A stretch of 64,000 nucleotides of DNA from Aquisalinus sp. (lineage in GTDB: Bacteria > Pseudomonadota > Alphaproteobacteria > Caulobacterales > Parvularculaceae), in the NCBI GenBank assembly GCA_022763115.1, contig JALEGJ010000047.1, positions 81,979 through 145,978 on the forward strand, read 5' to 3'. Shown in pieces: positions 13,836 to 17,419 of the stretch. Under the pieces are notes generated by a model that saw only the letters and a list, made by a program, of their open reading frames with translations, ran no database searches and was not told where the DNA came from. The first letter of the stretch is position 1. Every line of letters starts with the position of its first letter. Position numbers and translations under genes: made by a program.

Positions 13836-13947
13836 CGAAATATCACCTCGCCCAGATCAATATCGCCAGGCCAATGTTTTCCATGGAAGACGAGCGCATG
13901 GCAGGCTTCAGCAACGCGATAGAAGCTGTCAACGCTTTCGCCGAAGC
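13832..13947 (+). pseudogene. 5' part of a DUF3291-type gene interrupted by a transposable element
   Basis: MTKYHLAQINIARPMFSMEDERMAGFSNAIEAVNAFAEA continues in frame with the fragment at 17412 once the element is removed. As it stands it runs into the element and stops at 13975. Confidence 0.9.
13940..13947. repeat. Left target-site duplication GCCGAAGC
   Basis: Identical to 17412..17419. A 9 bp reading, CGCCGAAGC, is also possible. Confidence 0.93.
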
Positions 13948-13967
13948 GGTAGTGGGTCAGTTTGAAA
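13948..13967 (+). repeat. Left terminal inverted repeat GGTAGTGGGTCAGTTTGAAA
   Basis: Exact reverse complement of 17392..17411. Confidence 0.95.
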
Positions 13968-14853
13968 TTTGCTGACCCTTCTTTTTGTATGGTCCCCGTT
14001 TTTTGGGCTTATTGAACATATCATCTACCAGTTTCACGATGTCCTCAACTTCCCATGTTCTGTCAGTGATGCCAGCGGCCATTGCCGGGGTCAGCTTGTT
14101 GAGTGATTTATGGCTGCGGATGAAATTGTAATACATGAAGTGCAGGGCAACAGCGTTTGCATGGTTTTCGATTTTCTTGCTGAAGCCGTTTGTCAGTCTG
14201 GTGAAGCGGCGCATGTGCATACGCATGGTCAGATTTTGGCGCTCAACATAGGAAGTTGAAACATGCTCTTTGTCGGGATCGCCTTCGATCCGGCGCTTTT
14301 TGATGCCCGTGCATTCCGCTGGTGAATATTTCCGCTCTGCTGTTTTCCCGGCTGGCTCGCCATACATTTTGACCAGTTGTGCATAATCAACATCACCACC
14401 AAAAGCGCCTTCTACAGCTTCGAGATAGGCCTTGTGACCGTCAGTAGTAAGTTGGACCCGATTGGCCAAACGTGAGCGCAGATCATCCATGAAGGCGATG
14501 GCGTATTCACCGTCCCGGCCACCGACGAGATAGGAGATTGCCAGCTTGCTATCCGCATCAATGGCGGTCCAAGTCCATGTATCGCCAGCCTCAGCCGGTG
14601 CAGCTTTAGCTGTCTTCACGTTCTTCTGTTTTGCGTAGGTGAATGACCAGATTTCATCACACTGGACGCGGGACGCCTGCACGTTGCGAACATTTTCTTC
14701 ATGGAAGGCATAACAGGCCGCACCAGCCTGATTGGCCAGCTTGGAAACTGTGTTTTTGGATACGTCAGCAATCTCCGCTGTTCCGCGAATAGACGTGCCT
14801 TGCAGGAGGCATTTCAGGATCGTGACGCGGGTATGCAGGGGCAGCTTGTTCAT
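13957..14853 (-). CDS. IS1-type DDE transposase
   Basis: MNKLPLHTRVTILKCLLQGTSIRGTAEIADVSKNTVSKL HTH N-terminus. Catalytic-type motifs QCDEIWSF, TTDGHKAYLEA and SYVERQNLTMRMHMRRFTRLTN. Start at ATG 14853 (track start 14859 is a GTG). Confidence 0.88.
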   Translation of the reverse strand: MNKLPLHTRVTILKCLLQGTSIRGTAEIADVSKNTVSKLANQAGAACYAFHEENVRNVQASRVQCDEIWSFTYAKQKNVKTAKAAPAEAGDTWTWTAIDADSKLAISYLVGGRDGEYAIAFMDDLRSRLANRVQLTTDGHKAYLEAVEGAFGGDVDYAQLVKMYGEPAGKTAERKYSPAECTGIKKRRIEGDPDKEHVSTSYVERQNLTMRMHMRRFTRLTNGFSKKIENHANAVALHFMYYNFIRSHKSLNKLTPAMAAGITDRTWEVEDIVKLVDDMFNKPKKRGPYKKKGQQISN

Positions 14854-14859
14854 GCTCAC

Positions 14860-14887
14860 AACATAGCACTTCCGGCACTTTTGTCAA
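14860..14887 (-). promoter_or_regulatory. Putative sigma70-type promoter for the transposase
   Basis: Minus strand: TTGACA - 16 bp - TATGTT, with the ATG 7 nt after the -10 hexamer. Confidence 0.55.
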
Positions 14888-14893
14888 GCATTT

Positions 14894-14903
14894 GGGTCAG
14901 TTT
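14894..14903 (+). repeat. Internal copy of the terminal-repeat core GGGTCAGTTT
   Basis: Identical to 13954..13963 and to the reverse complement of 17396..17405. Confidence 0.75.
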
Positions 14904-14925
14904 AACAAATTATGTAAAATGGTAT

Positions 14926-14955
14926 TTGACACACTCCCCGGCAAGCGGCTATAAA
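14926..14955 (+). promoter_or_regulatory. Putative sigma70-type promoter for the toxin operon
   Basis: TTGACA (14926..14931) - 18 bp - TATAAA (14950..14955), ending 5 bp before the ATG at 14961. Confidence 0.65.
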
Positions 14956-14960
14956 TAATT

Positions 14961-15257
14961 ATGGAGGTCGAGTTTGCTGATTCTGAGCTTGCAAAGATCG
15001 AAACGGACAATGCGGGAGACACCCGGTTGCCCGTTGCAGTGATTCGAGGAGCAAGGCGAAAGCTGACCGTCTTGCGGGCGGCACCAGATGACCGAACCCT
15101 CCGGAATTGGAAAAGTCTGCATTACGAAAAGATGAAAGGAGATCGCAAAGGGCAGCGCTCAATTCGTATTAACAGCAAATATCGAATTGTGTTCACGCTG
15201 GACAGCGAGGCCGAACCACAAAAAGCAACAATACTGGCCATTGAGGATTATCACTGA
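14961..15257 (+). CDS. RelE/ParE-superfamily (HigB-like) toxin
   Basis: 98 aa with HigB/RelE pattern SLHYEKMKGDRKGQRSIRINSKYRIVFTLD...ILAIEDYH. TGATG overlap with the following HTH gene. Confidence 0.87.
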   Translation: MEVEFADSELAKIETDNAGDTRLPVAVIRGARRKLTVLRAAPDDRTLRNWKSLHYEKMKGDRKGQRSIRINSKYRIVFTLDSEAEPQKATILAIEDYH

Positions 15258-16414
15258 TGTCAAACGAAGCGACAATTACTGTTGAGCACCCTGGCGTGTT
15301 TATCCAAGATGAATTGGACGCACGCGGATGGGAGCAGTCTGACCTTGCTTACATCCTTGGCATGAGCGTGTCACAACTAAATCAGATCATTCACGGCAAA
15401 AGGTCTATATCTGTCGATCTTGCCGTAGCCCTCGGTGATGCGTTTGACGTTACCCCTGAGTTCTTTGCCAACCTTCAACGCATGTACGACTTGGCGTTGG
15501 CAAAAAAGCCAGACCCCGGCGTTAAAACTCGCGCTAATTGGGTTGGCTCATTTCCTGTTAGAGAAATGATCCGGCGTGGCTGGATTGAAGACACACAGGC
15601 CGATCTGTTGGATCTACAAATGATGAGATTTTTTGATACCAATAGTGTGTCAAATATCCCATATGTAGGTAGTGCACATATTGCTCCGCATGCAGCAAAA
15701 AAATCCAATTACGACGAGATCACGCCTGTGCAGTTAGTTTGGCTTCATCGCGTTAGGTCAATCGCCAAAACAATGGACTGCCCAGATTACGATAAGGGAA
15801 AGCTAATTGATATGCTGCCGGAGATTCGCGCTCACATGCATGATCGTGATGACTTTTGCAGAATACCATATCTTTTATGGGAATGCGGTGTCCGGACCGC
15901 TATTGTGGAGTCCCTTGCTGGCGGGAAAATGGACGGTGTGTGTACTTGGCTAGGGGATAATCCAGTTATCGGATTATCATTACGGCAAAACAGGCCGGAT
16001 AATCTTTGCTTCGTAATAAGGCATGAGATTGAACACATTATCAATGAAGACGGAAAAGATGTTGCGTATTCACACGTAGATGTTTTTGATCCGGATCGGG
16101 ACAGTAACTCACTGCCATTAGAAGAACAGCGTGCAGATGATGAGGCGGCAGAATTTTTGTTACCTCAAGACAAACTTCTCTCTTTCATGTCTCGCAAAGG
16201 GAAGTTTATTTCTGAGCGTGATGTGCTGGCCTTTTCTGCGCGGCATCACATTCATCCCAGCGTGGTCGTCGGGCAAATTCAGTTTCGCCGACATCAAGCG
16301 GGTGTACCAAATGCCTATGCCTTTTTGAGAAAGTACCAAAAAAGCATTGAAGACTGTTTTATGGATTGGGAATTTCGTGACGGCTGGGGACGTGTAGCTC
16401 CAGTTGGTCTGTAG
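15257..16414 (+). CDS. HigA-type HTH antitoxin fused to an ImmA/IrrE-like metallopeptidase domain
   Basis: N-terminal HPGVFIQDELDARGWEQSDLAYILGMSVSQLNQIIHGKRSISVDLAVALGDAFDVTPEFF (HigA-type XRE). C-terminal VIRHEIEHIINED (HExxH) and EEQRADDEAAEFLLP. Confidence 0.87.
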   Translation: MSNEATITVEHPGVFIQDELDARGWEQSDLAYILGMSVSQLNQIIHGKRSISVDLAVALGDAFDVTPEFFANLQRMYDLALAKKPDPGVKTRANWVGSFPVREMIRRGWIEDTQADLLDLQMMRFFDTNSVSNIPYVGSAHIAPHAAKKSNYDEITPVQLVWLHRVRSIAKTMDCPDYDKGKLIDMLPEIRAHMHDRDDFCRIPYLLWECGVRTAIVESLAGGKMDGVCTWLGDNPVIGLSLRQNRPDNLCFVIRHEIEHIINEDGKDVAYSHVDVFDPDRDSNSLPLEEQRADDEAAEFLLPQDKLLSFMSRKGKFISERDVLAFSARHHIHPSVVVGQIQFRRHQAGVPNAYAFLRKYQKSIEDCFMDWEFRDGWGRVAPVGL

Positions 16415-16424
16415 GAGAATTATA

Positions 16425-16916
16425 ATGGCTAATTATAACGAGCAACTACTCAACGCTTGGGAGGAGTGGGAACTCACAACAGGTGAGGACGCGAACGACC
16501 CAAACGATTTTATTGACTGGGCTGTTGAGAACGGAAAGCTGCGTCCTCGCCCGGAGGATATTCGCAAAATCTATCGCCGGGACGTTTCGAAGGTGCTTCG
16601 CCAAGCAATGCGAATTGATGAGAATGGAACGATGTATCGCGCCAAACAATGCGTGACTAAAATCGAAAATGGCCACCAGATGAATCTATGGTTTGACGTG
16701 GATTTCGGTGGCACACCACGCCTCAGGCAGAAGGCAGTGAAACAGCGACGGGATGCGATTTCCAATGATATTTACAAAGCCATGTCAGATGTTGAGCACA
16801 TGAACCATGCCTATCCTCATGATGATCGCATTCAGTTTGAGTTAGATTTCACAGAAGATTATGAGGAAAGAAAAGCCCTTGAAGCGCTTGAACGAGAGAA
16901 GCAGAAAGCGGCCTAG
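16425..16916 (+). CDS. Hypothetical third gene of the toxin-antitoxin operon
   Basis: MANYNEQLLNAWEEWELTTGED...; starts 10 bp after the preceding stop with a GGAG ribosome-binding motif. No family recognised. Confidence 0.7.
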   Translation: MANYNEQLLNAWEEWELTTGEDANDPNDFIDWAVENGKLRPRPEDIRKIYRRDVSKVLRQAMRIDENGTMYRAKQCVTKIENGHQMNLWFDVDFGGTPRLRQKAVKQRRDAISNDIYKAMSDVEHMNHAYPHDDRIQFELDFTEDYEERKALEALEREKQKAA

Positions 16917-17125
16917 GACTTTTTCCATCGCGCTGCTGCTGCTGCGCTAGCAATCTCTGATCTTTCCTCTGGTGTCAGGGCGCGCAAGCGTGATTTTGCG
17001 CCCTTTTTACCAGCCTTGCTCCGCGCCTCATTTACTTCTTCTTCCTGCTTTTCGCCGGTAGCCAGATCGACTATGCGCTTTGCAAGTTGGTTGGTGTCGC
17101 GGGGTCGTTTAGGTTTACTCATCAT
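16913..17125 (-). CDS. Small basic KGG-like protein, unknown function
   Basis: MMSKPKRPRDTNQLAKRIVDLATGEKQEEEVNEARSKAGKKGAKSRLRALTPEERSEIASAAAAARWKKS. Convergent with the 16425 ORF and overlapping its end. Confidence 0.6.
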   Translation of the reverse strand: MMSKPKRPRDTNQLAKRIVDLATGEKQEEEVNEARSKAGKKGAKSRLRALTPEERSEIASAAAAARWKKS

Positions 17126-17325
17126 GATTTTGTGGGGCAGGTCCCAATCAACTTGAACGCTGGATAGCTTGTGGCGTTCCACTTGGCCATGACCTCATTG
17201 CAACATACACATTTTTCGCAATCTTCATCGCGCGCAGGAGTGGTTCCTCCATGGGAGACCTCATAATGCGCTCCGCAATTCGGACATTTATGGCTGCCGT
17301 CTGCCTCTGATGGTTTAAATCTCAT
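17122..17325 (-). CDS. Small zinc-ribbon protein
   Basis: SHKCPNCGAHYEVSHGG...CEKCVCCNEVMAKWNATSYPAFKLI with paired CxxC motifs. Its stop overlaps the start of the next ORF. Confidence 0.6.
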   Translation of the reverse strand: MRFKPSEADGSHKCPNCGAHYEVSHGGTTPARDEDCEKCVCCNEVMAKWNATSYPAFKLIGTCPTKS

Positions 17326-17391
17326 GTATTAAATATGGCATGTTAACACGGCGATTCCAAGGCGGGGAGAAATCGTGTCATTTGGGCGGAT

Positions 17392-17411
17392 TTTCAAACT
17401 GACCCACTACC
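17392..17411 (-). repeat. Right terminal inverted repeat
   Basis: TTTCAAACTGACCCACTACC, exact reverse complement of 13948..13967. Confidence 0.95.
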
Positions 17412-17419
17412 GCCGAAGC
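17412..17419. repeat. Right target-site duplication GCCGAAGC
   Basis: Identical to 13940..13947. Confidence 0.93.

Follow-up and report, generated by a model that had tools for sequence, protein, structure and literature searches.

The three-gene operon at positions 14961-16916 of the window (the whole analysed stretch of 64,000 bp from Aquisalinus sp.) was confirmed as real by sequence comparison and is, on the same kind of evidence, the cargo of a complete IS1-family transposon. It encodes a HigB-like toxin (ORF1), a protein in which a HigA antitoxin domain is joined to a metallopeptidase of the M78 (ImmA/IrrE) type (ORF2, hereafter HigA-M78) and, as its third product, a member of a new family (ORF3), and it is classified here as a sister module of PD-λ-2 with a different third gene. 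The explanation preferred for the whole, held with moderate confidence, is that of a transposon-borne HigB/HigA-M78/ORF3 module in which the toxin would be released by a protease-triggered switch.

ORF1 (14961-15257, plus strand, 98 aa), ORF2 (15257-16414, plus strand, 385 aa) and ORF3 (16425-16916, plus strand, 163 aa) are closely packed, with ORF1 and ORF2 overlapping in TGATG and a gap of 10 bp between ORF2 and ORF3. The coordinates, the overlap, the gap, the length of 385 aa and the HEIEH motif had all been given correctly in the initial annotation, and its reading of the genes as a RelE/HigB toxin, a HigA-M78 fusion and a third gene was backed by protein families, folds and conservation of gene order; missed there were the kinship of the middle protein to PD-λ-2B and the enclosing IS1-family transposon, a larger mobile element of which the annotated interval is the cargo only. 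Purifying selection was found on all three genes (pN/pS of about 0.03-0.2 in close pairs). Relatives of ORF3 were sought in one genome per species and in viral contigs, and 60 were obtained at 22-75% identity, many of the compared loci coming from metagenome bins. A HigA-M78 gene lies directly upstream of the ORF3 relative at 58 of these 60 loci, the remaining two lying at the edge of a contig, so that adjacency holds at 58/58 loci where it could be judged; the operon is therefore not a chance arrangement, and the co-occurrence survey proposed in the initial annotation found the third gene conserved with the pair.

ORF1 was matched to Pfam HigB-like_toxin (PF05015, 8.6e-9), to phrog_3066 of PHROGs (3e-12) and to the GraT toxin chain 6f8s_B (1.3e-6), and with its HigB fold upstream of a HigA-type antitoxin the pair has the arrangement of the HigBA systems. 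The HigB residues conserved among relatives (R69, N71, R75, D96 and H98) are kept in this copy, and from these residues together with the strong purifying selection HigB is probably an active RNase.

ORF2 was matched to Pfam HTH_3 and Peptidase_M78 (PF06114, about 4.2e-6) and to NCBIfam antidote_HigA (8e-16). HEIEH occupies residues 256-260, and H256, E257, H260 and E290 are invariant among 49 HigA-M78 sequences, which places the protein among the M78 metallopeptidases with HExxH and a distal Glu. The N-terminus of the HigA-M78 model was superposed on solved HigA over about 73 residues at about 1 Å; taken as a whole, the model gave weak fold matches to CapP and PprI (E 0.01-0.02). The PADLOC profile PD-Lambda-2_B was also matched (7.4e-31, residues 11-346), as it was by 49/49 aligned HigA-M78 relatives, and ORF2 is thus assigned, as a full-length homologue, to the family of the PD-λ-2 B component.

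ORF3 gave no family match in Pfam, NCBIfam, PHROGs, PADLOC or PDB sequence, and its confident AlphaFold model (pLDDT 92) had neither a close structural match nor, in Foldseek, any relative of known function; the best match among viral models was a nameless one (A0A220NS53, E 0.01, TM 0.47). The initial annotation had recognised no family for the third protein, and by gene order, alignment and model ORF3 is described as a new family adjoining HigA-M78. Its invariant residues among 50 relatives are R72, R109, N127 and D145. A SecB-type chaperone, as in the TAC systems, was rejected for ORF3 on the ground that no SecB-type match was found. In the HigA-M78 tree the family occurs on one side only, and cyanobacterial and actinobacterial HigA-M78 relatives have a toxin gene and lack ORF3.

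The transposon (13948-17411, 3,464 bp) is intact. Exact inverted repeats outside the operon were found by a 5-kb repeat scan: the left terminal repeat GGTAGTGGGTCAGTTTGAAA (20 bp, 13948-13967, plus strand) is the exact complement of the right one (17392-17411, minus strand), and the same ends were identified by end comparison at 42 related loci. The element is flanked by identical 8-bp target-site duplications of GCCGAAGC (13940-13947 on the left and 17412-17419 on the right). An IS1-family DDE transposase of 300 aa (13957-14859, minus strand; the start conserved among relatives is 14853) was matched to Pfam DDE_Tnp_IS1 (7e-7) and is 66% identical to transposases at the same position on M. loti and Methylocapsa plasmids. 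The second backbone gene (16913-17122, minus strand) encodes a histone-H1-like basic protein of 69 aa, 61% identical to an M. loti 'histone H1', and is convergent with ORF3, the two stops overlapping by 4 bp. An ORF of 67 aa with CxxC motifs (17122-17325, minus strand), for which the gene evidence is weak, occurs in this copy only. The element is classed among IS1-family transposons with passenger genes ('transporter IS', a term from PMC3129680), the DDE_Tnp_IS1 match covering only part of the profile.

Bearing on mobility are the perfect ends, the duplication and the state of the host gene: the insertion splits a DUF3291 gene that three genomes of the same genus have intact, and joining of the flanks restores DUF3291 (2e-48). 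Transposon ends with fewer than two mismatches were found nowhere else in this genome. A chance inverted repeat was ruled out by the duplications at independent loci. The transposase belongs to the element and is not that of a merely neighbouring IS, since the right end lies past the H1-like gene. Elsewhere in the same genome (G000), positions 2330-3118 of contig C13 (L027, L146) contain another IS1-type transposase, of 43% identity, and after it a 271-aa protein without assignment; at 11141-11939 of contig C41 (L153), 799 bp between the related ends GGTAGTGTGTCAGCTTGAAATTACT and GGTAGTGTCTCAGTTTGAAATTACT contain an AHSA1-domain gene alone and no transposase, and no target duplication was found for this 799-bp stretch.

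The backbone of terminal repeats, divergent transposase and convergent H1-like gene was recognised at about 50 loci, the same plan being present in Mesorhizobium, Methylocapsa, Sphingomonas, Pelagibius, Chromatiales, Bryobacterales and other contigs. A close transposase was found in 29/385 genomes of the same class, and the H1-like gene at 48 of the 52 transposase loci (among which L043 and L118 are one locus counted twice). An exact 8-bp duplication was present in 32/42 end pairs, always at one boundary, and in 0/1,722 mismatched pairings across loci. One complete element with its 8-bp duplication (L086, IMG/VR) is on a contig classed as viral, which suggests that the transposons may enter phages or prophages.

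What varies is the cargo, which is exchanged among related transposons, often for other toxin-antitoxin, XRE-M78, Panacea or GNAT genes. In many backbones the slot was found to contain XRE-M78 fusions, Panacea antitoxin-like proteins, GNAT, BRO-N, P63C, STAND-like ATPase and unnamed proteins; at L119-L144, where all the named types are represented, GNAT is accompanied by a protein of 421 aa, and a pair of a 176-aa protein with an HTH protein and a family of about 265 aa without assignment both recur. Two elements in one genome, with transposases 95% identical, carry P63C and STAND-like ATPase cargo, respectively, and the cargo also differs between two elements of another genome with transposases 82% identical. 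The nearest relative of the window transposase (79%) carries a HigA-M78 just 45% identical. A single clade of HigA-carrying transposases was rejected on the transposase tree (AU p = 8.5e-7), and with it a single origin of the HigA cargo in one transposase lineage. The open-access literature searched yielded no account of IS1 elements that swap cargo in this way, by which novelty is not proven.

Between the divergent transposase and toxin genes, a conserved block (14882-14906) contains the transposase promoter -35 (TGTCAA, minus strand) together with the core of the terminal repeat in a further copy (TGGGTCAGTTTAAC). The palindrome TTTAACAAATTATGTAAAA (14901-14919), imperfect in the window with 6/7 pairs, is a candidate HigA operator about 60 bp 5' of the toxin start. 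A promoter-like TTGACA-18-TATAAA for the toxin operon (14926-14955, plus strand) was read from the sequence and is absent from the consensus-scan list. The relatives have a palindrome at the same position with a sequence varying by branch (TTTACACnnnGTGTAAA, ATTGACTnnnnnAGTCAAT, TTTAACGnnnnnCGTTAAA), and perfect palindromes were counted in 10/49 loci vs 1/49 in a control region, these loci being related and not independent. The distance of about 60 bp to the HigB start is the same at transposon and non-transposon loci. Since in the transposons the palindrome lies between the two divergent promoters and beside the terminal-repeat core copy, HigA-M78 probably represses the transposase too, and HigA-M78 and transposase presumably both act at this region.

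According to the preferred explanation, HigA-M78 would bind the candidate palindrome through its HigA domain, repress the operon and perhaps also, judging solely by the position of the palindrome, the transposase, and mask HigB. A trigger, for example single-stranded DNA produced by damage or by an attacking phage, would activate the M78 protease, as single-stranded DNA switches on CapP and PprI (PMC10904395); the protease would then destroy the repressor-antitoxin in cis or in trans, and the freed HigB would halt translation. ORF3 would be an accessory required for triggering, by analogy with PD-λ-2C, which is needed for λvir defence and not for neutralisation (PMC9519451). The transposon would gain stability, or a phage-resistant host. 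Loss of the repressor-antitoxin triggered by damage or infection is favoured by the invariant M78 residues, the HigA N-terminus and the weak matches to CapP and PprI, DNA-damage-sensing M78 proteins, with which a protease switch agrees. The weakness of these matches and the imperfection of the palindrome also count against this model.

So does the published behaviour of PD-λ-2, in which B, and not the HigB-like protein, is toxic by itself and is neutralised by A, the reverse of the expected assignment of toxicity (PMC9519451). If the roles were reversed here likewise, active HigA-M78 protease would be the harmful effector and HigB (or ORF3) its restraint, a reading which is considered a lesser possibility that still deserves weight. 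At least eight related transposons (L018, L019, L035, L040, L061, L117, L133 and L178) retain HigA-M78 and ORF3 without HigB, so HigB is not indispensable, which also counts against the preferred model, and the M78 residues are invariant; together with the published toxicity, the HigB-less transposons keep this reading alive. A divergent HigB hidden in these transposons was ruled out by a profile search, which found none at HigB-less transposon loci and found it in six phage loci only. The HigB-less loci would, however, require another restraint on HigA-M78, and the conserved residues and strong purifying selection of HigB speak for an active RNase where it is present. In place of HigB, locus L052 has a fused frame that begins like ParA and retains just the tail of HigB, with HigA-M78 and ORF3 intact downstream.

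An operon whose sole effect is to kill cells from which the transposon or its replicon has been lost, without a role against phage, is unlikely. Its position as cargo of a mobile element, the toxin-antitoxin types among the other cargo of these elements and the stabilising role proposed for such pairs in Tn3 transposons (PMC7157771) would suit pure addiction, but segregational loss of an inserted transposon is rare, the homologous system PD-λ-2 gives protection against λvir, and several relatives at non-transposon loci adjoin RM, Shedu or Abi genes. It is similarly improbable that HigA-M78 serves chiefly as a damage-responsive repressor acting on the divergent transposase, with HigB as a by-product, as might be read from the candidate operator and core copy between both promoters and from the HigB-less copies retaining HigA-M78 and ORF3, since the same palindrome at non-transposon loci without a transposase indicates that it serves the operon first, and backbones with other cargo manage without HigA.

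The operon brings a PD-λ-2-like system of unsolved mechanism into a compact element with a different third gene and with HigB sometimes absent, and by this natural variation the roles of toxin, antitoxin and sensor become testable. The IS1-type backbone of transposase and H1-like gene, in which cargo of toxin-antitoxin and defence-like kinds is swapped both within the alphaproteobacteria and outside them, is a simple possible route for such genes between genome sites and onto plasmids and phages. A bolder proposal, which is doubtful at present, is that in a whole class of IS1-type transposons the exchangeable slot is specialised to carry toxin-antitoxin and defence modules, and that the fusion of protease and repressor links both toxin release and transposase expression to infection or DNA damage, so that the element would jump as the host nears death.

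Among known systems, type II HigBA has the same toxin-first order, HigA domain and autoregulatory-type palindrome, whereas the antitoxin here has an extra middle domain and an M78 peptidase, and a third gene is added. CapP/CapH and PprI(IrrE)/DdrO share an M78 HExxH protease acting on an XRE-type repressor, with a weak fold match; protease and repressor are separate there and fused here, as in many XRE-M78 proteins. Like a transporter IS of the IS1 family, the element has one DDE_Tnp_IS1 transposase, short terminal repeats, an 8-bp duplication and passenger genes, and it differs in its constant second backbone gene (H1-like) and exchangeable cargo slot. In Tn3 transposons, toxin-antitoxin pairs are integral (PMC7157771) and, as here, recurrent and repeatedly acquired cargo, whereas the present element has a transposase of another family, no resolvase, and its cargo between the transposase and the H1-like gene. 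In gene order the module resembles PD-λ-2 of E. coli, which consists of a HigB-like protein, a fusion of HigA with a peptidase, and one further component (PMC9519451), with the middle proteins similar over their full length. The third genes, however, are unrelated (ORF3 has 163 aa against the 374 positions of the PD-Lambda-2_C profile), and the module here is carried by an IS1-type transposon. PD-Lambda-2_A was not matched at E 0.1 by this HigB or among 35 HigB relatives, and PD-Lambda-2_C was matched neither in 50 ORF3 relatives nor anywhere in this genome, for which reason PD-λ-2 was rejected as a label for the whole system. Loci with PD-Lambda-2_C beside HigA-M78 (L175, L185 and L187) branch separately in the HigA-M78 tree (long branches, supports of 69-91), which, with the unmatched A and C profiles, argues that the module is a sister of PD-λ-2, with a different third gene, and not PD-λ-2 itself.
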